Source of the DNA: Candidatus Poribacteria bacterium
Lineage (GTDB): Bacteria > Poribacteria > WGA-4E > WGA-3G
DNA: 64,000 bases
Assembly (NCBI GenBank): GCA_022825825.1
Contig: JAJDWA010000048.1
Location: 1-64,000 of the forward strand
Reading direction: 5' to 3'
Part shown: piece after piece, positions 47,340-63,501 of the stretch
Numbering within the stretch: position 1 is the stretch's first letter
Layout of the letters: each line of letters starts with the position of its first letter
Translations under genes and position numbers: made by a program
The notes under the pieces: generated by a model
What the model saw: the letters and a program-made list of their open reading frames with translations, nothing else
Told to the model about the DNA's origin: nothing
Database searches by the model: none

Positions 47340-49100
47340 ATGAAAATCACAAGGGACATCCTTTTCATTTCACTTTTCACCATAACTTTGTTTAGTCTAA
47401 ATCTCTTTGCACAAGACTATAATAGATGGAAACTTCCTGAAGGAGCAAAACTACGGATTGGAAAGGGCATAGTGCATGATATAAAATATACGCCGGACGG
47501 TGAACGGGTCGCTGTAGCAACCAGTATCGGAATTTGGATATATGATGCCCGGACGCACGAAGAACTCGCCCTTCTCACAGGGCATACAAGTTGGGTAACA
47601 GCAATAGACTTTCCTGCAGACGGCCGTTTCCTGGCAAGTGGGAGTTTTGATGGAACTGTCCGATTATGGGACATAAATACTGGCAAACAAATTGCAGTTT
47701 TCGCTGGACATAGAAGTAGCGTCCGAAGCATCGCAGTGTCACCTAATGGCAAGACATTAGCCAGTAGTGCGTGGGAAACGCTTATTCTCTGGGATATAGA
47801 AACAGGTAAACAACTAAAACGCCACACCAAATACGATGGTGTTAATATGGGCCAACGTATCAAAAATTTCTTTAACCGATTTCTACAAGGAAGGCGAGTC
47901 AAATATGCAAATGATACAAATCCCAATGTGATTGATACATTGGCATTCTCGCCTGATGGGAAAACCTTTGTGAGTGGACACTGGGACGGGGTTGTGCGAA
48001 TCTGGGATGGAGAAACTGGCGAGAGACTTTCAACGATTAGAGATCACAAACGTAACCACATAAAAAGTTTAGCATTCTCACCGGATGGCAAAACGTTTGT
48101 CAGTGGTGCATGGGTGCACAACATCCAATTACATACTTTTGAAAATGACAAATATCAAGCACGTCCTATACACTCGGTCAGTTTTCCCAGTAATTTAAAA
48201 TTTTCACCAAATGGCATTCTGCTTTTCGGGACTGGGCAATTAATTGATAACGATACTACTGGACAAAAAAATTTCGTTCACGTATGGAAAGTAGATACTG
48301 GCAGACTAATGACGTCCGCCCCTACCCCCGATGATATTAGGATGATAGCACTTGCATTCTCACCTAATGGAGATACCATCTTAACATGTAGTTGGGATGG
48401 CACATTTCACTCGTGGGATCCGGTAACACTCAAACATGCAATATTCACCACAGGACATGTTAGAGTTGGTGATACATTACAGTTTTCACCCGATGGGAAA
48501 ATATTAAACACAGTTGTGAGAAAAGACAAATTGTGGTTTTTTGATACAGTTACAGGCGTGCAAATATCGGCACCTAAAGAAAAAACCTATTCCACAAACC
48601 AAAAACCAACTTCTTCTGACCGCAAAATTTCCGCAGAAATTAATAAAGATCGAACGGCAATTAGTATAATAGATGTAGCAACTGGTACTGAAATCTCTCA
48701 CATTACAGGACATAAAGATATTATCTGGCGTTATAGTTTTTCACCTGACAGAGAAATGCTTGCTACAACAAGTAAAGATATGACTATTCGCTTATGGGAG
48801 GTTCCAACAGGCAAAGAATTACTTACGATCCCTGCGTATTCAAGATGGCCTACCGCTATAACCTTTTCGCCCGATGGAAAGATACTTGCGGGTGGTGGCG
48901 TGTATGATCAGAACATAAACCGTTCCAGTGTAATTCGTGTCTGGGAAGTTCCGAGTGGGAAAGTATTGAAAACACTCCCTGGACATATAGAAGGTATTAA
49001 GGCATTGCGTTTCTCAAATGATGGAAAAACCCTGGCAAGCAGCGGTGACGGCACTATCCTTCTCTGGGATTGGGAAAAAATTAGTCAGTCCACAAGGTAA
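47340..49100 (+). CDS. Exported WD40-repeat protein
   Basis: 586 residues. A signal peptide (about 1-24, ending LNLFAQ) is followed by WKLPEGAKLRIGKG, then WD40 blades such as SIGIWIYDARTHEEL, GTVRLWDINTGKQI, GVVRIWDGETGERL and MTIRLWEVPTGKEL, about ten units in all, giving one or two propellers. The entry WKLPEGAKLR matches that of the cytoplasmic propellers at 56.6-63.5 kb, so all come from one ancestor, but only this one is exported. WD40 propellers bind proteins; no enzyme part is visible. The stop overlaps the end of truD by 16 bases on the other strand. Confidence 0.88.
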   Translation: MKITRDILFISLFTITLFSLNLFAQDYNRWKLPEGAKLRIGKGIVHDIKYTPDGERVAVATSIGIWIYDARTHEELALLTGHTSWVTAIDFPADGRFLASGSFDGTVRLWDINTGKQIAVFAGHRSSVRSIAVSPNGKTLASSAWETLILWDIETGKQLKRHTKYDGVNMGQRIKNFFNRFLQGRRVKYANDTNPNVIDTLAFSPDGKTFVSGHWDGVVRIWDGETGERLSTIRDHKRNHIKSLAFSPDGKTFVSGAWVHNIQLHTFENDKYQARPIHSVSFPSNLKFSPNGILLFGTGQLIDNDTTGQKNFVHVWKVDTGRLMTSAPTPDDIRMIALAFSPNGDTILTCSWDGTFHSWDPVTLKHAIFTTGHVRVGDTLQFSPDGKILNTVVRKDKLWFFDTVTGVQISAPKEKTYSTNQKPTSSDRKISAEINKDRTAISIIDVATGTEISHITGHKDIIWRYSFSPDREMLATTSKDMTIRLWEVPTGKELLTIPAYSRWPTAITFSPDGKILAGGGVYDQNINRSSVIRVWEVPSGKVLKTLPGHIEGIKALRFSNDGKTLASSGDGTILLWDWEKISQSTR

Positions 49101-50158
49101 CCGTTGAGTTCGTCTAACACCACAGTCGCATAACTACCTGCAGGCAGCGTAAAACAGAGCCTTAACCCGACATCAACAGACGTAACCTGATGCAATTCCA
49201 TAAGCATCCGTAGCGGGCGGCGTGTTCCCGGCAACCGAATTCCTGCTACTTTGCGAAACGCCTCGAATTTCACTCCTTCAGCGGCAAGTAATTCCATCTC
49301 CAACGCCAGTACTTCACCAGCAGGTCGCCGCATCTTATAGCCGAAGATCGGACCGGATGGACTAATCTCAAACATATCTACACGCGGCTGCTCAACCTTA
49401 GCGTTTTCAACAAGAAACGGTGCTCCGTTGCTGTATTTTATCGCAATATCACCATCCCAGAGTTGTCCCAAATTCGACATTCGCTTCTCCAAAATACAAT
49501 TAAACAGATATGCCTGATATGCGGATAAATACAGTTTCCGAAGCCGATGCGGAATACATGCGACTGCCTCTTCCAACGATCCTTTTTCTTTTTCCCGTTT
49601 TACCTGTTTTGCAAAATCGCTGGACTGTGTTGTTTCATCTGAAAGCACGTAATGTAATGCTTCTTCCCATTCTGATTTTATCAACGCTCTGCCTATCAGA
49701 TGCGAGTCATGTTTATTTCCAAATCGCTGCGCGCCGAACCGATTCGGTACCCCCTCAGTTGCTAACTGTGCCATCTTTTCTTCAACAAACAGTAGTGATG
49801 TCGGTGGCACATCACGTAACGTTATCTGAAACTGATTACCGCGAAGATGCCCCACACGTAACTTATGCGCGTGTCGTTCTGCCCACAAAATCTCAAGCGC
49901 AGGCAGCGTTAACTCCAAAACCTGCTCAGGCGGAACACCTTCCACAGATAATACCTGTGTTGTGACTGCGTATTTATCTTTCAGACCCGCATACCCAAAA
50001 TTTCTGGGATTTACATGCAGCGCATGTGCGATTTGGTTAATCGCCTCAAAGGTGCTAAGCTTCTGTTTTCGGATAGCAAAAAACGTGTGCGTGCCTACTC
50101 GCGACGGTTCATAAAGCGGTAGTTCTTCAACAATGAAATCGTCAGGTTCTATTTTCAT
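49085..50158 (-). CDS. truD: tRNA pseudouridine synthase D
   Basis: 357 residues from ATG 50158, which follows AAGGGTGAAA; the frame open to 50260 continues into the preceding gene and begins inside it. TruD motifs are FIVEELPLYEP, the catalytic loop GYAGLKDKYAVTTQ with Asp61, and GVPNRFGAQRFG. TruD changes uridine 13 of tRNA-Glu to pseudouridine in E. coli; homologues have similar roles. E. coli TruD has 349 residues. It lies 79 bases downstream of a TlpA-like gene and overlaps the WD40 gene end convergently. Confidence 0.92.
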   Translation of the reverse strand: MKIEPDDFIVEELPLYEPSRVGTHTFFAIRKQKLSTFEAINQIAHALHVNPRNFGYAGLKDKYAVTTQVLSVEGVPPEQVLELTLPALEILWAERHAHKLRVGHLRGNQFQITLRDVPPTSLLFVEEKMAQLATEGVPNRFGAQRFGNKHDSHLIGRALIKSEWEEALHYVLSDETTQSSDFAKQVKREKEKGSLEEAVACIPHRLRKLYLSAYQAYLFNCILEKRMSNLGQLWDGDIAIKYSNGAPFLVENAKVEQPRVDMFEISPSGPIFGYKMRRPAGEVLALEMELLAAEGVKFEAFRKVAGIRLPGTRRPLRMLMELHQVTSVDVGLRLCFTLPAGSYATVVLDELNGYLVD

Positions 50159-50237
50159 TTTCACCCTTAGATATGCAGTAAATTGCTTGGAGGCGTACAC
50201 AAATAGACAAGGTTTGAACCGCGTCTTTTCAATCGTT

Positions 50238-51530
50238 CTACTCGTTTTCGGATTTGTCATTAATTGCTTCTTCTACCAGATATTCTAACGCCGCGTCCCT
50301 GGCATCACTTGAGATTAATGTCCCATCTCTATCAATGAGCCAAGGTACTAGAGGACCTTCAATCTTATACTGCAGCGCGAGGGGACTTTCCATTCCTTGT
50401 CCAGTGAAAATCTGCCGCCAAGGAATGCTGTTTTCTTTGAGGTAATCCATTAGTTCCGCTTCATCATCGTCAAGACTGACACCGATAACATCAAATCCCT
50501 TGTCCTTATAGATATCGTAAACCTTTTTGATATTTGGCATCTCCCGCAGGCAGAAACCACACCAGACCGCCCAAAAATCAAGCAACACGACTTTCCCGCG
50601 ATACTGCTGCAACGAAATCGGTTTACCATCAAGGTCAATCGCTGAAAAATCAGGAACAAGCTTGCCAACCAATTCTGAATCGGGTGCAACCTTGAGATGA
50701 TATTCCTTTGCTAATTTGGAGTTACCAACCTTCCAATGTATTTCAGCGAGTTTATTGAGAACAAGGTAGTCATCTGGATACTGTCCTGCAAGTTTTTCAA
50801 AAACCGGAAGTGCTTCCTCGTCCCGTTTTACCATCTCAAGCATTTCAGCAAGGGCAAAACAGTTTCGCGCATCGTTAGGGTCCATAATTGATTTGAAACG
50901 GTCAATGGTATTGTCAGCATCTTTTTCTCGCCCGACTTCAATATAGAGACGGGTAAGTGCAGAATGCACATGATTGGACAAACGTCCACTGTTTGTCTGT
51001 CGTTGAAGTCCTGCTTCCAAAGCGGTGATAGCTTTTTCAGGAGTTCCATACATGTCTTCCGGTGTAGATTGCCAAATCTCGGATGACCGAAATACCTTAA
51101 AAGAGAAGCTTAAATTTAAGCAGTCAAACGACTGATTTGCATGATGCCGACAACGAGCGAGCGGTATAACATCTCCATACACGGCTCTATTTTTCTGTGT
51201 ACCTTCTCGATATTCAGGGTGAAATTGGTAGCCATAACTCACGGACATCTTCGGGTCAGCATTGAAAGCAGCAATTGCCTTACCACCACCTTTATCTGCT
51301 GGACACAATAAGAGGTTCGCATCTTGCAGGTATTTCGGATAAAGTTCAGAAAGCCACTCAGGAAAATCGCCGTGGTCATTGTGGTACGCCTGAACCGCCT
51401 TACCGATAGCAAGCAAATTTTGAGTGCAAATTTCGATATTCTTTTGGTTTTGTGCCTCAGATGGATTTTGTTTTGCTATTCCCATACTTGCCAAAACAAT
51501 CGGTAAACATAACACGGTACCTAAGTTCAT
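50238..51530 (-). CDS. Pseudopilin-like, TPR and TlpA-type thioredoxin protein
   Basis: 430 residues. After a signal peptide (about 1-20) a segment EICTQNLLAIGKAVQAYHND with FPEWLSELYPKYL and LLLCPAD resembles DUF1559/pseudopilin C-terminal parts, as does PLARCRHH. TPR-like helices (about 170-280) follow. The C-terminal 150 residues are TlpA/thioredoxin: VPDFSAIDLDGKPISL, FWAVWCGFCLREMP with a CGFC redox centre, and VPWLIDRDG with the cis-Pro. All parts align with the periplasmic half of the M56-TlpA protein at 53.4-55.7 kb, so it is a stand-alone paralogue. It should act in the periplasm as a thiol-disulfide protein. A short exported protein gene lies 15 bases before it. Confidence 0.85.
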   Translation of the reverse strand: MNLGTVLCLPIVLASMGIAKQNPSEAQNQKNIEICTQNLLAIGKAVQAYHNDHGDFPEWLSELYPKYLQDANLLLCPADKGGGKAIAAFNADPKMSVSYGYQFHPEYREGTQKNRAVYGDVIPLARCRHHANQSFDCLNLSFSFKVFRSSEIWQSTPEDMYGTPEKAITALEAGLQRQTNSGRLSNHVHSALTRLYIEVGREKDADNTIDRFKSIMDPNDARNCFALAEMLEMVKRDEEALPVFEKLAGQYPDDYLVLNKLAEIHWKVGNSKLAKEYHLKVAPDSELVGKLVPDFSAIDLDGKPISLQQYRGKVVLLDFWAVWCGFCLREMPNIKKVYDIYKDKGFDVIGVSLDDDEAELMDYLKENSIPWRQIFTGQGMESPLALQYKIEGPLVPWLIDRDGTLISSDARDAALEYLVEEAINDKSENE

Positions 51531-53397: not shown

Positions 53398-55734
53398 CTA
53401 TTCATTCTTGAGCGCTTCCACTACGAGACGTTCTAACTTCGCACCTCTGGCTTTACGTGAAATCAACGTACCATCTCTGGCAATAAGCCACGGTGCAGGG
53501 ATCGCGCTAATATGATACTGCCTTGCAAGCGGACTGTTCCATCTTTGACCGCTGAAAATCTGCCGCCAAGGAATATCATTTGTCTTGAGGTAGTTGCGCA
53601 ATCTTGTTTCATCAGTATCAAGACTGACACCGATGATATCAAACCCCTGATCCTTATAGGTATCGTAAACCTTCTTCACATTCGGCATCTCGACGATGCA
53701 CGGAGGACACCAAACCGCCCAGAAATCGAGTAAAACAACTTTCCCGCGGTATTGTTGCAGCGAGATCGGTTTACCATCAAGATCAGTTGCAGAGAAGTCA
53801 GGCACAACCTTACCTACCAGCTCTACCATAGGATCAGCCTTTTTCTCATATTCCACCGCGAGTTCTGAATTGCCAAGTTTCTCATGAATTCGCGCAAGTT
53901 CATTAAGAACGTGGTAGTTGTCAGGATACCGCTCCTCAAGTTTCTCAAAAACTTTACGGACTTCTTCATGCTGATTTGCGATCTCAAGTATTGATCCGAG
54001 GCGAAAATTATCCGATAGACTGTTAGGTCTCATGATCGATTTGAAACGGTTAACAAGACCCTCAACATCTTTTTCGCGCCCAACTTCAACGTAGAAACGG
54101 GCAAGCGTCGTATAGAAATGAAAGAACTCCTCATTATCTGCTTGTTGTTGAAGTCCCTTTTCCAAAGCCGTGATGGCTTTTTCGATGGTTTCGTACATCG
54201 CTTCCGGAGTGCTTTGCCAGACCCCAGGTGACCAATATATCTTAAAAGCGAAACTCAAGTTTAGACACTCAAACGGTTGATCCTCATGATGTCGGCAACG
54301 GACAAGCGGCAAAACGTCTCCATACATGAGACGTTCCTCAGTTTTATCCTCTCGGTACTTAGGGTGAAACTGGTAGTCGTAACTCAGGGGCATTTTCGGA
54401 TCCGCATTGACAAGAAAATGGGTCTTACCACCGTTTTCATCTGCTGGACAAAGCAAGAGGTTAGCATCTGGTAGGTATTTGGGATAAAGGTCTGATAGCC
54501 ATTGCGGAAAATCGCCATGCTCCTTCTTGTATGCTTGAATTGCCTTGCCAATTTCAAGTAGATGCTGCTTGCATATCTCAACATTCTGTTGTGCCTTCAC
54601 AGAATTATCTTGTGCCAGCTGGAACTTGGATGTCTCTTCTGGATCAACCGCTTGTACTAAATGCATCGCGCTCATCGGGACTGCAACGGAGATGAGGATG
54701 AGCAGCCCTATTCCTATGGCAACCTTTGTCACCGGATGGCGATTCAAATTTTCAGTGAGAACGGTTCGGAGTCTTCCTTCAATCTTTGAGCGGCGTACCA
54801 TCGCAACAGCAGTACGTGAAATAGACTTAGCCATCTTTACATTGCGTGTTATATCAAGTAAATGTCGAGCGTAATCGGCTGATTGATAGCCAGTATTGAG
54901 TACTTCGTCATCACATGCTTGCTCAGCCTCTATTCGCATCCGCCGCGCTGTAAACCACATGAATGGATTGAACCAGTACGCTGCGCACACAATCTGTGCG
55001 ATTGTTTGTATCAACCAATCCGATCTTTTGATATGGGCAGTTTCATGAAGCAGAACGGCACGGAGGCGATCCGTTTGCCAATTCGCGGCATCAGCTGGTA
55101 GCAAAATCACAGGACGAAAAATGCCCCACATCATCGGCACGGTAATTTTGTCGCTGAGACACACATTAAACTGACGATTCCAATTAAGATGCAACTGTTC
55201 AATCGTGCTGCCAAAATCGTGAGCACGGGCGGAGATGTGCCAAACTGAACCGATCCCAACAACCAAACGAACAAGAAAGAATGCACTAACACATGCCCAA
55301 ACTATTCCTATCCAATATGTCCAATGAATTGTTGGTAGTAAGCTGCTCTTGTCAGTTACAGGTTGCGGGTGTCGTGGTAGTGTTGGAACGGTTTGGGTTG
55401 ATGCCACGTTTTCTGACAAAGACATGCTTGGTGCAATCAAAACGGATGATGTGGTGGATTGAACGTCTTCTGTTAAATGAGGATGCTGAAATCTGATTGG
55501 TGTTTGCGGCAAAACGTTAACCTCCCACTTCGGAAGCGCGAGAGAAAACAGTGAGACGATGAGACATCCAACAATTGCCATTCCCCAGACAAAACTTCGC
55601 ATTGCCGCCGATTTGCGGCGGAGATAAAATGTGAGTAAACCTGCAGCAGCGAAAATTACAATACTTTTAATTGTGATGTTAACAAGAAATTTCAGCAATG
55701 GGTTTGCATAGAACATTTCAAATAATTGCATCAT
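53398..55734 (-). CDS. BlaR1-like M56 metallopeptidase fused to a TlpA-type sensor
   Basis: 778 residues. Three hydrophobic segments in the first 150 residues, zinc motif HETAH (His230-Glu231 to His234) with a further Glu271 in EAEQACDDEV, and a fourth hydrophobic segment near 340-360 give the four-helix M56 topology of BlaR1/MecR1. The C-terminal ~400 residues would then be periplasmic: a pseudopilin-like part (LLEIGKAIQAYKKEHGDFPQ), TPR-like helices and a TlpA domain with redox centre CPPC near 676-679. In BlaR1 the C-terminal sensor binds beta-lactam; here a thioredoxin-fold domain takes that place. The ATG overlaps the BlaI stop by four bases. The inferred role is redox- or thiol-dependent signalling. 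Confidence 0.85.
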   Translation of the reverse strand: MMQLFEMFYANPLLKFLVNITIKSIVIFAAAGLLTFYLRRKSAAMRSFVWGMAIVGCLIVSLFSLALPKWEVNVLPQTPIRFQHPHLTEDVQSTTSSVLIAPSMSLSENVASTQTVPTLPRHPQPVTDKSSLLPTIHWTYWIGIVWACVSAFFLVRLVVGIGSVWHISARAHDFGSTIEQLHLNWNRQFNVCLSDKITVPMMWGIFRPVILLPADAANWQTDRLRAVLLHETAHIKRSDWLIQTIAQIVCAAYWFNPFMWFTARRMRIEAEQACDDEVLNTGYQSADYARHLLDITRNVKMAKSISRTAVAMVRRSKIEGRLRTVLTENLNRHPVTKVAIGIGLLILISVAVPMSAMHLVQAVDPEETSKFQLAQDNSVKAQQNVEICKQHLLEIGKAIQAYKKEHGDFPQWLSDLYPKYLPDANLLLCPADENGGKTHFLVNADPKMPLSYDYQFHPKYREDKTEERLMYGDVLPLVRCRHHEDQPFECLNLSFAFKIYWSPGVWQSTPEAMYETIEKAITALEKGLQQQADNEEFFHFYTTLARFYVEVGREKDVEGLVNRFKSIMRPNSLSDNFRLGSILEIANQHEEVRKVFEKLEERYPDNYHVLNELARIHEKLGNSELAVEYEKKADPMVELVGKVVPDFSATDLDGKPISLQQYRGKVVLLDFWAVWCPPCIVEMPNVKKVYDTYKDQGFDIIGVSLDTDETRLRNYLKTNDIPWRQIFSGQRWNSPLARQYHISAIPAPWLIARDGTLISRKARGAKLERLVVEALKNE

Positions 55735-56120
55735 GATGAGGTGTCTCCTTTTTTAGCATTCTCAATGAGTTGGCTTAAACGGTCAAGTTCCTCATCCGAT
55801 AGGTCTGCGTCGGAAATTAATGTCATGACCGTTTTCTTAATGGATTTATCAAAAAACGTGTGAAAAATCTGTTTGAGCGCGGAACGTCCGGCCTGATGGC
55901 GTGGCTGCGTAGGACGATAGATGTAGCGCTTACCATCTTTTTTGTGGGAGAGATACCCTTTCTCCTCTAAAATTCGCAGCAATGCCCGAACTGTGGAGTA
56001 ACTCGGTTCATCGGGAAGGTCCTCAAGCGCATCTGCCACAGAAACGTGGCCGCGTTGATAAACGATATCCATCAGCTGCCGTTCCCGACGACTCAGTTTT
56101 GCAATACGGTTATCTTCCAT
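55731..56120 (-). CDS. BlaI/MecI/CopY-type repressor
   Basis: 129 residues. The N-terminal winged helix shows KLSRRERQLMDIVYQRG, EPSYSTVRALLRILEEKGYL and KDGKRYIYRP, as in BlaI. The C-terminal part, DLSDEELDRLSQLI, is the dimer helix. BlaI represses until cut by the cognate M56 peptidase. It is followed, with a four-base overlap, by the M56-TlpA gene. A palindrome TGCTAA-TATT-TTAGCA lies over its own -10 box, so self-repression is likely. The ATG follows GGGGGGTG. Confidence 0.9.
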   Translation of the reverse strand: MEDNRIAKLSRRERQLMDIVYQRGHVSVADALEDLPDEPSYSTVRALLRILEEKGYLSHKKDGKRYIYRPTQPRHQAGRSALKQIFHTFFDKSIKKTVMTLISDADLSDEELDRLSQLIENAKKGDTSS

Positions 56121-56145
56121 GTTGTCACCCCCCTTTTTTAAAACA

Positions 56146-56161
56146 TGCTAATATTTTAGCA
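56146..56161. promoter_or_regulatory. Putative BlaI-type operator
   Basis: TGCTAA (56146-56151) and TTAGCA (56156-56161) with a TATT spacer lie across the -10 box of the blaI-like promoter. The site is the only strong dyad in this upstream region. Binding is inferred. Confidence 0.6.
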
Positions 56162-56181
56162 CTTAAAAAAGTAAATGTAAA
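56153..56181 (-). promoter_or_regulatory. Promoter of the BlaI-like / M56-TlpA unit
   Basis: On the minus strand TTTACA (56181-56176) and TAAAAT (56158-56153) are 17 bases apart with TGC before the -10 (extended -10). Confidence 0.6.
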
Positions 56182-56605: not shown

Positions 56606-58621
56606 ATGGAAAACCACAAACCCTCAATTTCTGTGCCAGCAGGTCCATTCGAAGGTAATGTAACCACTTGGGCACTCCCCGAAGGCGCAATTGCTCGATT
56701 AGGACGCGGAAGTGAACCTAAAATGGCGTTCTCAGATGATGGGCAGTCTCTTGCCATTGGTACCTGCATAGGACTCTGGCTATATGACCTCGCAACGCTT
56801 TCCCCTGTTGCACTTTGGAATGCAGAACGAGGAGTGATAGAATCTGTTGCCTTTTCACCTAACGGAAAGTGGATAGCCGCCAGTCACTCAGGGCGAATGC
56901 TTAAGACTTGGAATGTCCAGAATGGCACGTTCTGGACACAAGTCAAATTAGAGACTTACGTAGATAGCGTAACCTTTTCCCACGATAATCGGTATATCGC
57001 AGTTGCTTATTCTGGCTATAGCAGATCTCCTGTGGTTGAAGTTTGGCATGTAGAAACCGGTAAGCCGTTTGCAAAATTCACTGCGGATGCTGATAGAGCG
57101 GGTATCTGCCGACCTATCAGTTTCTCACCTGATACTCGACTGATAGCGTCCACCTGCAGCTCCGCTACTACAGACGGGGCGGACTCAATAATAGTGTGGA
57201 GTATGGAAGGCGAACAAATTGCGTGCCTCTCAGCACACACCTATTGGGTAACTACCCTCTGCTTTTCACCGTGTGGGAAATTTCTCGCCTCTGGTGGTGA
57301 AGATGGCACCGTGTACGTCTGGGATGTTCATACTTGGCAACAAGTGAAGTGCTATACAGATTATGGTCGCGTCTATCGTATTATTCCATCTTGGACACCT
57401 GATGGAATTCTACGCGCAGCGATTGTCCATTATGACGATACCGGGCCCGCTACTATCTCTGTCCGTGACCTTGAAAGTGGAGAACAACTTTATAACGATC
57501 AAGTATGGGGCAATACTGTTCAATTCTCTGATGAGGGTGATTGGGGCAACACTGTCCTCCTTTCAAACGGTTCGCAACTTGCTTACGAGCGCCGACACGA
57601 GTTTATCAATGTATGGACTTCTGACAATCCTGTCAAACGTCAATTCACGCATTCGCCTATCTCGTTTCCAACATCAATGTTTTTTTCAGGGGATGGAAAG
57701 ACGTTAGCCGTGAAACACCACCAAGAGGGTGTCGTGTTATGGGATATTGCAAGTAAACGTTCGCGTCCTGCAATTAAGGAGGTATCGGCAGGGAAAAATC
57801 AGTTTGTGTATAAAACCGATAACGGAAAGCTTCATACCGCAAGCATTAAAGATAACACTGTTACACTTTGGGAGGCCGATAGTGACGGGATGCCACTTAT
57901 TGAAGCAACGGGACGAGAATACTGGAGTGCATCTCCCGCATTAGCACCGACAGGCACGCTTTTCGCTTACGCAGACGGGGATGGCACAGTACAAGTGTGG
58001 GATGTGCAGAATGGAGAGAAACTTTATGAATTGGCACATCCCCTTGAGCCAAGTGATGACAACGATGACGAAGATGAGGGTGATTTTGTTAATGCATTGA
58101 AATTCAGTCAGGATGGAAAATTACTCGTAAGTGAATCAAAATCTCATAGTGTCAAACTGTGGGACATGGTACTTGGTGAAGAGATAGAACTCTTACCAGG
58201 TGATAAAATCAAGAGCGTCCGATTTTGCAGGTGTGGACGGTACCATGCTTATTTAGGAAAAGAAGGAAAGCAATATTGGGATATCATCCAACGGGAATAC
58301 TGTGAGGATGTAACCTGTTCGTGTGATCCGCCATGGGGTGAAATAGAAAAAAGGCTGTCAATACCACCAGGATTCGAACATTTTGAGGGTCCAGGGGTAT
58401 ATTCTTTGTGTGGACAATACAGGGCAATTAGAACATCGCACAAGGATTTAAAGAGTGAACCTATTGATGTATGGGAAGTCGCGAGTGGTAAACATCTTGT
58501 CACTTTTAGCGGACATGTCTCACGTGTGTTGGAACTCGCCTTTTCTCCAGACAATAAACTTTTAGCCAGTGCAAGTCATGATGGCACTATCCTGCTTTGG
58601 GATCTGACTCCATATCTTTAG
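56606..58621 (+). CDS. Cytoplasmic WD40 protein A (sigma-less paralogue)
   Basis: 671 residues, no signal peptide or membrane helix. It begins with a short head, then TTWALPEGAIARLGRG, which opens the propeller. Blades include GLWLYDLATLSPVAL, VVEVWHVETGKPF, GTVYVWDVHTW, GTVQVWDVQNGEKLY and the last TILLWDLTPYL. The final WDLTPYL end and the TWALPEGAI entry are the same as in protein B and in the sigma-WD40 fusion, so it is the propeller part of that protein without the sigma factor. The ATG follows AAGGAGATAATTT. It is followed 17 bases later by protein B. It may compete for or modify the ligand of the sigma propeller. Confidence 0.85.
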   Translation: MENHKPSISVPAGPFEGNVTTWALPEGAIARLGRGSEPKMAFSDDGQSLAIGTCIGLWLYDLATLSPVALWNAERGVIESVAFSPNGKWIAASHSGRMLKTWNVQNGTFWTQVKLETYVDSVTFSHDNRYIAVAYSGYSRSPVVEVWHVETGKPFAKFTADADRAGICRPISFSPDTRLIASTCSSATTDGADSIIVWSMEGEQIACLSAHTYWVTTLCFSPCGKFLASGGEDGTVYVWDVHTWQQVKCYTDYGRVYRIIPSWTPDGILRAAIVHYDDTGPATISVRDLESGEQLYNDQVWGNTVQFSDEGDWGNTVLLSNGSQLAYERRHEFINVWTSDNPVKRQFTHSPISFPTSMFFSGDGKTLAVKHHQEGVVLWDIASKRSRPAIKEVSAGKNQFVYKTDNGKLHTASIKDNTVTLWEADSDGMPLIEATGREYWSASPALAPTGTLFAYADGDGTVQVWDVQNGEKLYELAHPLEPSDDNDDEDEGDFVNALKFSQDGKLLVSESKSHSVKLWDMVLGEEIELLPGDKIKSVRFCRCGRYHAYLGKEGKQYWDIIQREYCEDVTCSCDPPWGEIEKRLSIPPGFEHFEGPGVYSLCGQYRAIRTSHKDLKSEPIDVWEVASGKHLVTFSGHVSRVLELAFSPDNKLLASASHDGTILLWDLTPYL

Positions 58622-58638
58622 AACAAGGAGAAATTTTG

Positions 58639-60702
58639 ATGGAAAATAAAAAATCAGTAATTTCTGCACCCGCAGATGCTAAAGGAGAAGATGTAACAAC
58701 CTGGGCACTTCCCGATGGTGCGATTGCCCGTTTAGGACGCGGGTGTAGTCCTGACTTCACTTTCTCGCCAGATGGTCAGTCCCTTGCAATAGGAAACACA
58801 TTAGGTCTTTGGGTGTATGATTTGGAAACGCTATCTCCTATCGCGCTGTGGGAGGCAGAACGCGGGTTGATAGTTAGTGTTGCCTTTTCACCTAACGGAA
58901 AATGGATTGCAGCCTACAATTCAGACGAAATTTTAAAGGTATTGGACATCCAAAATGGCACTTGCTTAACACAAGTAGAAACAGATGAATATATTACAGG
59001 TCTGGTCTTTTCTCCTGATAGTCAATATCTCGCAGCCGCTTATGCACGTACTTCTACTGTTGAAATATGGCATGCTGAAACCTGCGAACAGGTTACCCAA
59101 TTCACTGTAGACACTGAAGAAGCAGCTTTCTATAGACCTGTTAGTTTCTCACCTGATTCGCAACTGATAGCATCTACATGTATCCCCGATACCGCTGACA
59201 ATGCAGAGTCGATAGTCGTATGGGATGTGCAAAGTCGTGAACAAATTGCGTATCTATCAGGACACACACGTAAAGCTGGAATTGATGCTAATATTTGGGT
59301 AACTACCCTCTGCTTTTCACCTTGCAGACAGTTCCTCGCTTCTGGTAGCGAAGATGGCACAGTGTACGTCTGGGATATTAACACTTGGCAACAAGTCCGA
59401 GAATATACCGATTATGGTGAGGTGTGTGGCATTTCACCATCCTATTCACCTGATGGAATTCTACGTGCAGCAATTGTTCATTATGACAAGACCGGTCCCG
59501 CTACTATCTCTGTTTGTAACCTGGAAAGTGGTGAACAACTTTATACAGATCAGGTATGGGGTAATACGACTGATTCTTCTCACCCCGTTGATGGGGGCAA
59601 CACTTTAGAATTTTCAAACGGTTCGCTACTCGCTTATGAATGTAGGCATGAATTCATCAACGTATGGACACCTGAATACCCATATAAGCGACAGTTTACA
59701 CATTCGCCTATTTCTTTTCCTGCCTATGAACGTACTTCTATCTCGTTTCCTACAGCAATGTTTTCAGATGACGGCAAAACATTAGCGGTAAAACATCATC
59801 ATGAAGGTGTTGTGTTATGGGATATTGCAAGTAAACGTTCACGTCCAGCAGTTAAAGTGGATTCAGTAGGAAAAAATCAGTTTCTATATAAAACCGATAG
59901 CGGAAAACTCTATGTTGCCAGCATCAAAGATGACAAGGCTGCACTTTGGGAAGCTGATAGTGACGGGATGCCACTTATTGAAGCAACAGGACGCGAGTAT
60001 TGGAGTGCAAGTCCTGCATTATCACCAACAGGCGAGTTATTTGCCTATGCTGATGCAGATGGAAACCTGAAGGTGTGGGATGTAAACAGTGGGAGTCAAC
60101 TCTATGAACTGAAACATTCTCTTAAGGAAAATGATAACGAGAATGATGAAACAATTTGTGACCTGCAATTCAGTTATGATGGAAAAATACTCGCAAGTGA
60201 ATCAAATTATCCTCACGCGCATGTCATTTCGTGGGACATGGAACTTGGTGAAGAGATTGATAATTCTCTAAATGATAATGTTATTACCCGAATCCTTGGA
60301 AGACTCGTCTTGAGATATTTGAAGCCAAGATCTCGTGAGGTCGTCCATATTTCTCATGATAGACAGTATTTATCTTCCATAGGAAATAACTCATACTTGT
60401 ATGATGTGAAACAGAATGACTACCTTACTCGGTTGACCTTACCACAAGGGTTAGAAGATATGTTTTGGGCTGCAAAATTTTCTATATGTGGGAAATATTT
60501 TGCAGCTGGGACATGGTGGCAAGAAGGTATGGAAAAAATGGCAATCTGTTTATGGGAGGTAGAAACCGGTAGACTGATTGTTACATTTAGGGGACATCCA
60601 ACAGATGTACATGCACTCGCCTTCTCTCCAGACAACAAACTTTTAGCCAGTGCCAGTTATGATGGCACTATCCTGCTTTGGGATCTGACACCTTATCTGT
60701 GA
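58639..60702 (+). CDS. Cytoplasmic WD40 protein B (sigma-less paralogue)
   Basis: 687 residues from ATG 58639, chosen because AAGGAGAAATTTTG stands before it; the frame open from 58597 begins inside the previous gene. It starts like protein A (MENKKSVISAP, then TTWALPDGAIARLGRG) and ends in the same TILLWDLTPYL. Blades include GLWVYDLETLSPIAL, GTVYVWDINTW, and NLKVWDVNSGSQLYEL. It is a tandem duplicate of A with many blades close in sequence. No signal peptide is present. A promoter-like leader follows, so it is the last gene of the pair. Its binding partner is not known. Confidence 0.85.
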   Translation: MENKKSVISAPADAKGEDVTTWALPDGAIARLGRGCSPDFTFSPDGQSLAIGNTLGLWVYDLETLSPIALWEAERGLIVSVAFSPNGKWIAAYNSDEILKVLDIQNGTCLTQVETDEYITGLVFSPDSQYLAAAYARTSTVEIWHAETCEQVTQFTVDTEEAAFYRPVSFSPDSQLIASTCIPDTADNAESIVVWDVQSREQIAYLSGHTRKAGIDANIWVTTLCFSPCRQFLASGSEDGTVYVWDINTWQQVREYTDYGEVCGISPSYSPDGILRAAIVHYDKTGPATISVCNLESGEQLYTDQVWGNTTDSSHPVDGGNTLEFSNGSLLAYECRHEFINVWTPEYPYKRQFTHSPISFPAYERTSISFPTAMFSDDGKTLAVKHHHEGVVLWDIASKRSRPAVKVDSVGKNQFLYKTDSGKLYVASIKDDKAALWEADSDGMPLIEATGREYWSASPALSPTGELFAYADADGNLKVWDVNSGSQLYELKHSLKENDNENDETICDLQFSYDGKILASESNYPHAHVISWDMELGEEIDNSLNDNVITRILGRLVLRYLKPRSREVVHISHDRQYLSSIGNNSYLYDVKQNDYLTRLTLPQGLEDMFWAAKFSICGKYFAAGTWWQEGMEKMAICLWEVETGRLIVTFRGHPTDVHALAFSPDNKLLASASYDGTILLWDLTPYL

Positions 60703-60730: not shown

Positions 60731-60798
60731 TATATTTTTTTAAACCTTTTTCCCGAAAACCCTCCTCTATACATTAAAACTGGCTCAGGAATTTGTTT
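60731..60798 (+). promoter_or_regulatory. Conserved leader/promoter of the sigma-WD40 gene, copy 1
   Basis: This stretch, continuing to 60806 in the coding region, is identical over 76 bases to the one before the second sigma-WD40 gene at 63807-63882. It includes CCCGAAAACCCTCCTC and TCTATAC, which could be a -35/-10 pair of an ECF-type promoter. Conservation before two sigma genes suggests self-control. Confidence 0.5.
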
Positions 60799-63501
60799 AT
60801 GCACAATGATTTTTTTGCTTTCAGTAATCTAACAGATGAAGAGCTGATTCGGCTCGTACAAAACAGGAACGAGGCAGCTTTTGCAGAGCTCATGTCTCGT
60901 TGGACACCACGGATTAGGAGTGTTGTTATCTCTAATTCGAGACAACGTCGAGACGCTGAAGAAATTCAAACTGACATCTGGGTAGCTGTATGGCAAAACA
61001 TCAGAGAACTCAGAAATGTGGAAAGCTTTGGTGCATGGCTGCATCGCATTGCTTACAACGCATGCAAGCGGTACTACACTTCGGCGCGTAAATCACGTAA
61101 TGAAATCCCACATCAACAGTCCGTGTTAGTTGAACATATAGACCAACATGCTGCAGCTCGGTATAGAGAAGCACAATTGATTGCTGATGTGAAAGAAGCT
61201 ATCTACAACCTACCACAAAAGGTGCGTTCTGTAGCAGAATTGTTTTATTTAGAATCGTGGCATATCAAAGAAATCGCGGCGGAGCTTAATCTCACTATTG
61301 GCACAGTTAAAACGAAATTAAGAGAGGTCCGAAAACGCCTGCGCGAAGAATTTGATGCAGAACCGATAAGAGGAGAAGTTATGTCTTCAAAAAATGTTGT
61401 ATCACACAGTCCAATGCAAATTGAGACAAAAAAAGCAAAACCGAGCCAAGTCCCCGCACAGCTGAATGTTGTTGCCAACGACACTACAGGGGGTACTTGG
61501 GCACTACCGGAGGGTGCAATTATTAGACTTGGAAAAGGGCACGCGGAAGATGTCAAACTTTCTCCAGATGGAACACATTTTGCTGTAGCCACTACGACAG
61601 GGTTATGGTGGTATGATGTTTCCTCAATGTCGCCTATTTCGTTATGGGAACCGGGTAAGGGACACGTTAGTTCCATCCATTTTTTCCCTAATGGTAAATG
61701 GGTCATCATATCTACTATACATGCTGGAAACAGTACCATCAAGGTAATGGATATTCAAAGCGGAGAGTGCATCATGCAGATTGACGATCATGATGCCTAT
61801 AGCGATCTTGCATGTTCGTCAAATGGAAAATGGGTCGCGACAGCATCTAAGAAAGGCGTTGTGAAGGTGTTGGATATCCAAACTGGTGAGTGCCTCGCAC
61901 AGATGGATCGTGGAGAACACAAATGGCAATCGAACGATATTACCAAACTCCAATTTTCCCCGGATGGCAAATTACTTGCCGCTGCCGCAGGGAATCCAAA
62001 CCTTTATTCAAACGACGAACTTTTAAACCCTGATACAGAAGGACCTCAAGTTTATGTTTGGTGTCCTGAAACGGGTGAGGTAATACTCAAGTTTGCAGAA
62101 CAAAATTTTACCTTTTCCTCGGACAGTCGCTTGTTAGCGGTTACATGTCCTGACGAAACCTTGAACGATGACGAAAGCGTTGACCGTTGGGTTTCAGTAT
62201 GGGATGTAACATCAAGGGAACACATTGCACAATTTACAGGGCATGACGATTGGGTAGATGCTATCGCTTTTTCACCGTGTGGACAATTCGTTGCATCAAG
62301 TGACGGGGTCCTACGGGTATGGGATATTGCAACAGGTTCAGAAAAGAAGGTTTTTCCTGACTTTCCTGACTTTAACAATTATTTCTACTCAGAGGATGGA
62401 GAACTGTTTGCAGTAATAATTCAGGGTTCAACTAATTCGTCTATTGAAGTATGGCATGTAGAACATCGTGAAAAGATATTTGAGATATCTGATCTTGGCG
62501 ATGGTTTGGCATATTCTTTAGCCAAAGTCTATATACAACAATTGGTTAAAACAGCATCCTACAAACAGACAGATGCAAAAATACCGGTATTCTCAGTGCG
62601 AGAACCTCAGTTCCCCTTGTGGCTCGTGATGCAGATAAATTGGTTGGATAACCAGACACTTGTGAGTAATGATACCACAGGAATAGTATTGTGGGATGTT
62701 GACAAGAAATGTTACCGAGATACAGTGTCCATAGATGGATGGATGGATGCTATCTCCGTTCTACCCTCTGGTAAAATGCTGGTTTCTTATTTTTCTGATG
62801 ATAGGAAAGTGTGTGTTGCCAGCATACCTGATCAGCTAATTGCTGAGTTCACTTTTCCTGATGAACTATTGGAATTGAATCGTTATCGTGCATTTGCACC
62901 GACTGGTGAGTATGTTGCGACAGGAAGTAGTGAAGGCACAGTCTATGTGTGGGATCTCAAGCAACCTGAGCACCCGATACGCCTCAAGGGACATACAGAT
63001 TACATTTACAGGTGTGCGTTTTCGTGGGATGGGAAACGACTCGTGAGTGGGGCAAGTGACGAGACTGCCCGTGTGTGGGATGTGGAATTAGGCAAAGAAA
63101 TTGCCAGATTGCCTATGGACGAGTCTTGCACAGCGTGGGGATTTGTGTTCTCACCCTGTGGTAACCTTATCGCGGGCTCTTTGGATAATGAGATCCGTTT
63201 CTGGTGTGCTAAGCAGTTCACAAAGGTCCGTTCAATACCGCAACCGGAGAAGAACAGGCAGACACATCCACTTGCATTTTCACCTTGTGGAAAGTATCTC
63301 GCAGCAGCAACTTGGTGGCAGGAGGATTCGGAAAATCTGGCAATTCGGATATGGGATGTTAATACAGGTGAACAAATTCATGCTTTCCAGGGACATAATT
63401 CACTCGTGCAATCGCTTGCGTTTTCGCCAAATGGCACAATGTTAGCGGTTGGTTGTTGCAATGGCACTATTCTCATCTGGGATATGAAACCGTATCTGTA
63501 A
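60799..63501 (+). CDS. ECF sigma factor fused to a WD40 propeller
   Basis: 900 residues from ATG 60799; an in-frame TTG two codons earlier is less likely. The first ~190 residues are an ECF sigma factor: sigma-2 with AFAELMSRWTPRIRSVV, DAEEIQTDIWVAVWQN and FGAWLHRIAYNACKRYY, and sigma-4 with LPQKVRSVAELFYLE and IAAELNLTIGTVKTKLREVR. A short link leads to GTWALPEGAIIRLGKG and the propeller blades (GLWWYDVSSMSPISL, GTVYVWDLKQ, ARVWDVELGKEI), ending TILIWDMKPYL. No membrane helix or signal is present, so the propeller is cytoplasmic and probably senses a signal or holds the sigma part. An internal ribosome site at 61371 may give the propeller alone. Sigma factors with C-terminal WD40 are known from planctomycete surveys; function is not known. 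Confidence 0.9.
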   Translation: MHNDFFAFSNLTDEELIRLVQNRNEAAFAELMSRWTPRIRSVVISNSRQRRDAEEIQTDIWVAVWQNIRELRNVESFGAWLHRIAYNACKRYYTSARKSRNEIPHQQSVLVEHIDQHAAARYREAQLIADVKEAIYNLPQKVRSVAELFYLESWHIKEIAAELNLTIGTVKTKLREVRKRLREEFDAEPIRGEVMSSKNVVSHSPMQIETKKAKPSQVPAQLNVVANDTTGGTWALPEGAIIRLGKGHAEDVKLSPDGTHFAVATTTGLWWYDVSSMSPISLWEPGKGHVSSIHFFPNGKWVIISTIHAGNSTIKVMDIQSGECIMQIDDHDAYSDLACSSNGKWVATASKKGVVKVLDIQTGECLAQMDRGEHKWQSNDITKLQFSPDGKLLAAAAGNPNLYSNDELLNPDTEGPQVYVWCPETGEVILKFAEQNFTFSSDSRLLAVTCPDETLNDDESVDRWVSVWDVTSREHIAQFTGHDDWVDAIAFSPCGQFVASSDGVLRVWDIATGSEKKVFPDFPDFNNYFYSEDGELFAVIIQGSTNSSIEVWHVEHREKIFEISDLGDGLAYSLAKVYIQQLVKTASYKQTDAKIPVFSVREPQFPLWLVMQINWLDNQTLVSNDTTGIVLWDVDKKCYRDTVSIDGWMDAISVLPSGKMLVSYFSDDRKVCVASIPDQLIAEFTFPDELLELNRYRAFAPTGEYVATGSSEGTVYVWDLKQPEHPIRLKGHTDYIYRCAFSWDGKRLVSGASDETARVWDVELGKEIARLPMDESCTAWGFVFSPCGNLIAGSLDNEIRFWCAKQFTKVRSIPQPEKNRQTHPLAFSPCGKYLAAATWWQEDSENLAIRIWDVNTGEQIHAFQGHNSLVQSLAFSPNGTMLAVGCCNGTILIWDMKPYL
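61371..61383 (+). promoter_or_regulatory. Internal Shine-Dalgarno and ATG in the sigma-WD40 gene
   Basis: AGGAG (61371-61375) stands five bases before an in-frame ATG (61381-61383), residue 195. It falls between the sigma-4 helix and the propeller, and a product from here would look like proteins A and B (short head, then WALPEGAI). Confidence 0.55.

Follow-up and report, generated by a model that had tools for sequence, protein, structure and literature searches.

A BlaR1-type receptor with a predicted non-beta-lactam sensor beside a BlaI-type repressor in Candidatus Poribacteria

The analysed stretch of DNA, 64,000 nucleotides of contig JAJDWA010000048.1 from a Candidatus Poribacteria bacterium (hereafter the window), encodes a BlaI-type repressor followed by an M56 membrane protease whose predicted periplasmic part comprises a pilin-like domain, TPR helices and a TlpA-type thioredoxin fold. 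We consider it probable (roughly 60%) that the pair forms a BlaR1-type system, in which a transmembrane receptor with a sensor for something other than beta-lactams releases genes for exported proteins of its own module type from repression through cleavage of BlaI. BlaR1 and MecR1 are best known from beta-lactam resistance; here, in an uncultured phylum, the same protease and repressor are combined with outside parts of quite another kind, and one conserved DNA target recurs in two further phyla. The system offers a route to M56 receptor signalling independent of beta-lactam acylation, and lets one ask what the natural signals of the receptor family are and whether effectors are the source from which a sensor is copied. 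The locus has the following features:

53398..55734, minus: M56 protease / DUF1559-like / TPR / TlpA fusion (receptor), 778 aa
55731..56120, minus: winged-helix repressor of the BlaI type, 129 aa without any cysteine (PF03965 E 4e-30; MecI E 1.4e-8)
56146..56161, strand (.): candidate BlaI operator, TGCTAAAATATTAGCA on the coding strand (sequence, conservation 5' of blaI, tie to BlaI presence)
56153..56181, minus: promoter candidate TTTACA-17-TAAAAT, -10 inside the operator (sequence)
55818..55823, minus: Thr100-Leu101 codons of BlaI, counterpart of the scissile bond Asn101-Phe102 in S. aureus BlaI (MecI alignment)
54727..55734, minus: receptor residues 1-336, membrane helices 16-34, 49-67 and 142-160 plus predicted cytoplasmic zinc protease domain
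55033..55047, minus: HETAH zinc motif, H230-H234
54667..54723, minus: TM4, residues 338-356 (hydropathy)
54193..54603, minus: DUF1559-like (pseudopilin-type) domain with C388, C429, C480, H482, H483 and C490
53827..54192, minus: TPR helices of the receptor
53401..53826, minus: TlpA/ResA-type thioredoxin-fold domain
53698..53709, minus: CPPC, C676-C679
51546..52058, minus: 170-aa protein of unassigned family, N-terminal hydrophobic stretch
50238..51530, minus: free copy of the periplasmic module with CGFC and a hydrophobic stretch at its N-terminus (63-64% identity with the fusion)

The blaI and receptor reading frames overlap by 4 bp, as the preliminary description had it, the common coding-strand bases being ATGA. 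BlaI matched the Penicillinase_R winged-helix model PF03965 with 104.9 bits (curated cut-off 22.6, E 4e-30). Its best NCBIfam model was TIGR02698 (CopY/TcrY), yet the score of 67.4 bits lies under the cut-off of 121.95. CopY/TcrY copper repressors carry a metal-binding cysteine motif, and no cysteine is present in the 129 aa of the window BlaI; this and the low score rule out a CopY-type metal repressor. By alignment to MecI the predicted cleavage position is Thr100-Leu101, unlike the Asn101-Phe102 scissile bond of S. aureus BlaI and the almost invariant Phe at known BlaI cleavage sites (PMC9834060), which counts against the BlaR1-type reading. The same Leu occupies the aligned position in all 20 BlaI rows compared.

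The protease part of the receptor (residues 16-323) matched PF05569 with 114.6 bits against a cut-off of 31 (E 6e-33). Its HETAH motif is intact, as noted earlier, and E271-D275 provides the gluzincin ExxxD; H230, H234, E271 and D275 were invariant in a 15-row receptor alignment and each lies exactly 29 residues past H201, H205, E242 and D246 of BlaR1 (numbering per PMC9834060), HEXXH and ExxxD thus having the identical spacing in the two receptors. Four hydrophobic helices and the loop charges give an Nout/Cout pattern in BlaR1 order, judged by hydropathy and charge only, so that the protease is predicted inside and the C-terminal TlpA part outside the cell membrane rather than in the cytoplasm. 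Pfam and NCBIfam scans found no class-D beta-lactamase-like penicillin-binding domain in the receptor, and the best NCBIfam BlaR1 model reached 87.3 of 400 bits, covering the M56 part only. As far as sequence can show, this supports the earlier proposal that the receptor is BlaR1-like, cleaves its repressor and has no penicillin-binding sensor. A structure model of the full-length fusion, built with 15 close orthologues, was too poor (mean pLDDT 43.5) and was left out of the argument.

The TPR-like helices and the CPPC-bearing TlpA domain of the preliminary description were both recovered, with TPR matches at residues ~515-633 (best 1.5e-5; the start at 515 is the boundary of the module split used for homologue comparison) and an AhpC-TSA/Redoxin match at residues 640-762 (E 3e-22) containing C676-C679. 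The closest solved structures to the C-terminal domain are of the TlpA/ResA type (ResA 1st9, 4nmu, 4grf), and the NCBIfam ResA and TlpA models scored under cut-off. By fold and CxxC the domain fits the TlpA/ResA thiol-disulfide oxidoreductases, whose active-site surroundings it shares; it differs from them in ending a membrane protease and in lacking cysteines in 4 of 19 relatives. For the pilin-like part, hits to DUF1559 (PF07596) at E<=1 came from 21 of 40 family members, the best at 0.0011; the copy in the window gave none, and a profile search against the PDB gave no match up to E 10. The periplasmic part modelled well by itself (mean pLDDT 93.7, pTM 0.80), with a long N-terminal helix on this domain, and the pseudopilin-like nature suggested earlier is likely, if weak by sequence.

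The region marked in the preliminary description, which ends at 56181, also holds an operator-like palindrome at 56146-56161 that had gone unnamed. This site, of the form TGCTAA-N4-TTAGCA, lies across the -10 box of the candidate blaI promoter. It is the only match in the window to TGCTAAWWWWTTAGCA with up to 2 mismatches, and since shuffled windows gave 0.45 matches on average, this single match proves nothing by itself. Across genomes, the operator (WWWW form) was found in 27 of 30 with this BlaI, leaving 3 that have none, and in 5 of 54 without it (Fisher p 8e-14, relatedness ignored), while the reversed-pattern control occurred in 1 of 84. In 22 of the 27, an operator is no more than about 250 bp away from blaI, judged by the coordinates of blaI; also among the 27, it is placed one gene upstream in G030, away from blaI in G037, and on another contig than blaI in G018, G070 and G071. 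A TTGACA-(16 to 18)-TAAAAT promoter is found at the same place in 13 of 16 other fusion loci, a second operator copy often lies 42-44 bp upstream of the first, and the same operator stands 5' of blaI in one locus from Acidobacteriota (L069) and three from Gammaproteobacteria (L076, L087, L088). Sequence and conservation thus point to a palindromic operator over blaI's own promoter, to which BlaI would bind, and which makes the regulon findable in further genomes. Matches in G037 (four, none beside BlaI), G059 (2) and G060 (1), the latter two judged from one stretch each, had no shared gene adjoining and were taken as chance.

Full-length M56-TlpA fusions were found in 19 Poribacteria genomes, all of one family and each following a BlaI. 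Neither observation named beforehand as speaking against the proposal, a fusion limited to this genome without BlaI elsewhere or a cytoplasmic TlpA part, was therefore made. The sensor position itself is variable: the order-level relatives L042 and L150 carry a redoxin-type domain without CxxC, L169 (one genome) has a WD40 propeller, and redoxin and TlpA modules stand in tandem in two genomes, the TlpA-bearing module being alone in most. In L052 the sensor module clusters with free copies and the M56 part with other M56 sequences, which we read as re-exchange of the sensor with a free copy. For G030 (L022/L056), a natural division between receptor and sensor was considered and rejected; its two parts occupy different frames of one assembly, and the locus is therefore described as a broken copy. 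Among the titles and abstract openings listed by searches of freely available journal papers, none described an M56-TlpA fusion, and no paper in that literature combined BlaR1, M56 and thioredoxin.

What the periplasmic part responds to can be read in several ways. The preliminary description favoured periplasmic thiols or a redox partner, which would oxidise or reduce the CPPC pair and so switch the protease. Such a role would suit the TlpA/ResA-type structures, the intact CxxC of 15 of the 19 fusions including that of the window, E682 and P746, identical in 17 of 17 fused modules, and the clusters of relatives with their several genes of thioredoxin fold, among them one that probably encodes selenocysteine. 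However, in the other 4 fusions one cysteine of the pair or both are gone, through at least three independent losses, and the protease motifs are retained; three of these 4 (L018/L049, L024/L054, L026/L053) have exact operators before blaI, and in the fourth, from G018, the operator lies at the end of its separate contig. The free copies have also lost cysteines (C676 kept in 31 of 35, C679 in 32 of 35), so nothing marks the pair as specific to the receptor. We therefore rejected CPPC as a universal switch and, considering also the order-level relatives without CxxC and the WD40 case, regard thiol sensing as unlikely for the family in general; for the window protein itself, with CPPC, E682 and P746 intact, a redox role may hold.

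Metal sensing, with C388, C429, C480, H482, H483 and C490 holding a metal that sets protease activity, appears less probable still. All six are identical in each of the 17 fused modules compared, but the first five are equally constant in 35 of 35 free-copy rows, and the cysteines may simply form disulfides of an exported protein. The CopY/TcrY model, BlaI's top match albeit under cut-off, is offset by the cysteine-free repressor, and no copper transporter was present among the scanned cluster proteins (representatives only). A precedent is PetRP of Synechocystis, where a BlaI-type regulator is removed by a BlaR1-family protease upon a signal reported as copper and controls a small regulon (PMC13421787, PMC7896320). 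By this published description, PetRP shares with the Poribacteria pair the BlaI/BlaR1 type, a presumed non-beta-lactam signal and a small regulon; BlaI/BlaR1 systems for other signals are thus already known. Finally, the fusion might sense nothing and only tether an enzyme to the membrane, M56 activity being constitutive or set otherwise. The many free module proteins and the CxxC intact in most receptors would agree with this, yet the part changes between TlpA module, redoxin module without CxxC and WD40 while BlaI, M56 and operator stay, which is the behaviour expected of sensors and makes a mere tether very improbable.

For the preferred BlaR1-type reading, we infer the cleavage of BlaI and the signal path from sequence. 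With no stimulus, BlaI would occupy TGCTAA-N4-TTAGCA, cover the -10 box and so keep blaI, the receptor gene and the genes behind repressed. Binding of a periplasmic ligand or partner by the pilin-like, TPR and TlpA-fold module would induce a change passed along the long pilin-type helix, which joins the module to TM4, and through TM4 to the cytoplasmic zinc site; the protease would then cut BlaI near Thr100-Leu101 and free the operator. If the released genes encode exported proteins built from the receptor's own module type, the receptor's sensor would thus be a relative of the proteins under its control, in parallel to BlaR1, whose sensor is beta-lactamase-like and whose system produces a beta-lactamase. 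More tentatively, and with somewhat less than even odds, the chassis may gain sensors by capturing the cell's own proteins and thereby monitor ligands of the envelope proteins it controls; repressor type and operator are constant across phyla while the sensor part changes.

BlaR1/BlaI and MecR1/MecI of Staphylococcus aureus share with the Poribacteria pair the BlaI/MecI-type repressor with an M56 protease, the motif spacing, the four-helix Nout/Cout pattern and a sensor resembling a class of protein the system makes. BlaZ belongs to another beta-lactamase class than the class-D-like BlaR1 sensor. In contrast to these systems, the Poribacteria receptor has DUF1559-like, TPR and TlpA parts in place of the penicillin-binding domain, in its BlaI a Leu, not a Phe, aligns with the cleavage position, the operator is TGCTAA-N4-TTAGCA, and no beta-lactamase was found among nine window proteins scanned. 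Of the 13 BlaI-M56 loci seen outside Poribacteria, 5 (L071, L074, L075, L080, L082) have a gene of the TlpA type that overlaps BlaI or M56 or lies directly next to one of them. These Latescibacterota and Gemmatimonadota operons differ in that TlpA is encoded on its own, with CSPC in both proteins checked, the M56 proteins have ExbD-like and FlgD-Ig-like parts in the two scanned, BlaI is ~30% identical, and there is no TGCTAA operator.

The regulon looks local. In the nearly closed genomes G034, G082 and G081 (3, 1 and 1 contigs), the three checked site by site, all sites (3, 2 and 6) lie within 15 kb of blaI, and a genome-wide regulon was rejected. Candidate members are exported copies of the module; relatives add a probable selenoprotein, ABC-2 permeases and sigma-TlpA proteins to these. 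Full-length free copies lie downstream in 9 of 19 fusion loci, with one more cut by a contig end; 8 of 19 have none within the stretch read and the copy in L043 lacks the TlpA part, and sensing with a copy of the product is therefore not universal. In the window, the free copy has no operator in front, the genome has one WWWW-type operator and a 446-bp gap follows the receptor gene, so gene order alone, across that gap, suggests co-regulation. The 170-aa neighbour and its homologue gave no Pfam match, nor the homologue an NCBIfam match. In L019, L020, L047, L048, L053, L054 and L060, a homologue directly follows the receptor gene at a distance of up to about 30 bases.

The preliminary description placed a BlaI gene in a four-base overlap with an M56 peptidase gene, and the overlap is indeed the ATGA common to both genes:

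55731-56120, minus strand: blaI
53398-55734, minus strand: receptor gene (M56/DUF1559-like/TPR/TlpA fusion, 778 aa)

The window is contig 53 of a genome with 84% completeness that encodes one M56 protein above the Pfam cut-off. The M56 part comprises receptor residues 1-336, and His230, His234, Glu271 and Asp275 correspond to His201, His205, Glu242 and Asp246 of BlaR1 as numbered in the text of PMC9834060, shifted by exactly 29 positions. Hydropathy gives four helices (16-34, 49-67, 142-160 and 338-356); the loop 38-46 carries four Lys/Arg and no acidic residues, and the loop 67-137 four basic versus five acidic ones, a distribution suggesting that both termini lie outside, following the BlaR1 pattern. 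BlaI-type repressors are cut by M56 receptors such as BlaR1 (PMC9834060), and PetP is an M56-family protein cutting PetR (PMC7896320, PMC13421787); by family membership, the receptor described here would likewise cut its BlaI. The candidate cleavage position by alignment is Thr100-Leu101, where Leu is found in all 20 BlaI rows, other phyla included; in the BlaI set described in PMC9834060, Phe is nearly invariant at the cleavage position. As reported for PetRP, a BlaI/M56 pair with a non-beta-lactam signal is already known, and an M56 protein with a TlpA or DUF1559 sensor was not described in the literature searched.

The fusion is not limited to this genome, the case that the preliminary description had set against its own reading, but is widespread within one Poribacteria family. 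Among the 24 genomes of this family with a BlaI of at least 80% identity, 19 encode the full-length M56/DUF1559-like/TPR/TlpA protein directly 3' of BlaI, loci being assigned to genomes by the length of the contig or the position of blaI. In the other five, the receptor is frameshifted (G030), broken off by contig ends (G062, G079), present as one copy stopping within the pilin-like domain and another short at 200 aa (G078), or has its module replaced by a WD40 propeller (G072):

L169:2450-5332, minus strand: WD40-propeller BlaI-M56 receptor of G072, the propeller being the periplasmic part; operators present

The periplasmic module (approximately residues 365-778) was predicted at high confidence, with a pLDDT of 93.7 and a pTM of 0.80, from 82 alignment rows: a 42-residue helix leads into a small alpha/beta domain, after which come TPR helices and, last, a TlpA domain. 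Judging by their titles, the 50 PDB matches listed for the model all have a thioredoxin fold. On weak sequence evidence, the small domain probably belongs to the pseudopilin-type family DUF1559. The long helix of pilins begins inside the membrane, and we infer that the fourth transmembrane helix (TM4) occupies the place of that membrane segment.

The proposal that the CPPC motif serves redox sensing is weakened as a general mechanism: the motif is intact in the window's receptor and a CxxC is kept in 15 of the 19 fusions, but it is lost in four:

L016 thiol site: YGPC
L018 thiol site: CGPS
L024 thiol site: SRPC
L026 thiol site: SGPG

As L024 and L026 are sisters in the M56 tree and L016 and L018 are placed in other parts of it, at least three losses took place. 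The pilin-domain cysteines are retained in all four fusions, as are HExxH and the gluzincin motif. The module alignment held 52 rows, 17 fused (L167 and L170 were added later and are not among them) and 35 labelled free, the latter including the frameshifted receptor of L056 and one gene twice (L016, L046). Cys388, Cys429, Cys480, His482 and His483 were invariant in all 52 rows, Cys490 was present in 17/17 fused and 24/35 free rows, Cys676 in 14/17 and 31/35, and Cys679 in 15/17 and 32/35. The constant periplasmic cysteines of the receptor are thus those of the pilin-like domain and not of the thioredoxin site, and metal or disulfide chemistry at the pilin-domain Cys/His residues is as good a guess for the basis of the signal as the CPPC motif.

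The sensor part appears in several combinations. L052 falls among the other fusions in the M56 tree, and its module groups with free copies in the module tree, where the fused label changes four times, one change stemming from the frameshifted L056 labelled free. Further traces of shuffling are L174, which has TM4 and both modules without the protease and an operator in front, and L168, a second blaI locus of G066, in which the first 31 receptor residues are joined to TPR-TlpA. In two of the 19 fusions (L055, 1236 aa, and L060, 1243 aa), a further, older module sits between M56 and the newer module, and it shares 43-47% identity with almost all of the periplasmic part of L042, a receptor from another family of the order. 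The older module in L042 and L150 contains a redoxin-type domain in which no CxxC was found. This can be explained by a redoxin sensor lacking CxxC that gained the TlpA module and whose older module later disappeared on more than one occasion. Such a sequence of events is compatible with the M56 tree, in which 8 of 20 inner branches are well supported, but is not proven by it.

A candidate BlaI operator accompanies the locus. The sequence TGCTAAAATATTAGCA or near variants occurred in 14 of 17 aligned blaI upstream regions, with TACTAAATTTTTAGTA in L056, and 16 of the 19 fusion loci had an exact TGCTAA-N4-TTAGCA no more than 250 bp from blaI. The other three are L046, whose genome (G018) has its two sites at the end of another contig, and L047 and L048, where only 140 and 61 bases precede blaI. 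The site encloses a TAAAAT box spaced 16 to 18 bases from TTGACA; often there is another site 42-44 bases upstream of the first. Among 84 genomes of the phylum, the narrower form with a WWWW spacer was present in 27 of the 30 with a BlaI of at least 70% identity versus 5 of the 54 others (two-sided Fisher p 8e-14, relatedness ignored), and the reversed control pattern in 1/84. By coordinates the site adjoins blaI in 22 of the 27; it lies one gene upstream in G030, on a contig other than that of blaI in G018, G070 and G071, and away from blaI in G037. Of the BlaI genomes lacking the form (G035, G038, G079), G035 has a one-mismatch site before blaI (L163) and G079 an N4 site of non-WWWW type in the same position. 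Sites without this BlaI occur in G064, G067 and G069, from one genus (the first two approximately 80% complete, the site of G069 at a contig end), and in the distant G059 and G060. Outside the phylum, an exact site precedes blaI in L069, L076, L087 and L088 (BlaI 45-61% identical), and none was found before blaI in L067 (43%) or in L071, L072, L074, L075, L077, L079, L080 and L082 (approximately 30-36%). The window's genome has a single WWWW site; TGCTAATACGTTAGCA is found on its contig 65, and the reversed control in the same search also gave one match.

Near the cluster, sites other than those in blaI promoters precede TPR-TlpA or sigma-TPR-TlpA genes in L139, L140, L147, L154, L157, L159, L160, L161, L162 and L170, a list spanning nine genomes; in L138 and L156 such sites precede genes for ABC-2 permeases. 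Three sigma fusions (ECF sigma with TPR-TlpA or DUF1559-like/TPR/TlpA) were noted:

L139:13180-15285, minus strand: assigned by Pfam
L157:4859-7039, minus strand: assigned by likeness to L139
L037:556-2706, plus strand: assigned by Pfam

No membrane helix was predicted in the L139 protein, so its TlpA fold, which lacks CxxC, would be cytoplasmic.

Behind the receptor, in varying number, follow a 170-aa protein, free module copies and a two-part frame split by TGA. The free copy is full-length in nine of the 19 loci, contig-cut in one, without the TlpA part in one and absent from eight; in the window it lies behind the 170-aa gene, and 446 bp separate the receptor from the next minus-strand ORF. 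The end of the free-copy gene overlaps by 23 bases a TruD pseudouridine synthase gene (49085-50260, minus strand, E 4e-90). In G020, an RRXRR/IscB-like protein (L139:5833-7044, minus strand; Pfam above and the NCBIfam IscB model below cut-off) is encoded between the receptor and 170-aa genes.

The split frame encodes a probable selenoprotein:

L138:13463-15355, plus strand: probable selenoprotein in the cluster

It also occurs in L139, L140, L147, L154, L156 and L158, with a distant version in L153 and a contig-cut one in L155. The first frame ends in LDDESC at the TGA and reading continues in frame for 279-396 codons (L138 and the six further copies), through GSGK or GTGK, LRAGPLSS, TPR and a TlpA domain with a degenerate CxxC. 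In six of eight close copies the predicted fold includes a hairpin approximately 20 nt 3' of the TGA, and 53 of 59 relatives, G000 among them, have a tRNA-Sec scoring above the Rfam cut-off. The first half matched no Pfam or NCBIfam model and has homologs in 64 of the 84 phylum genomes (E≤1e-15).

WD40-repeat proteins are encoded near the window's locus:

47340-49100, plus strand: WD40-repeat protein (Pfam)
56606-58621, plus strand: WD40-repeat protein (Pfam)
58597-60702, plus strand: WD40-repeat protein by likeness to its neighbor, overlapping the end of 56606-58621
60793-63501, plus strand: WD40-repeat protein, 902 aa

The N-terminus of the last resembles an ECF sigma factor by eye, and the best 25 of its 46 Pfam matches are propeller families. 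An association of TlpA with BlaI-M56 is also seen outside Poribacteria, in Latescibacterota and Gemmatimonadota, where a TlpA-type gene overlaps blaI or the M56 gene in L071, L074, L080 and L082.
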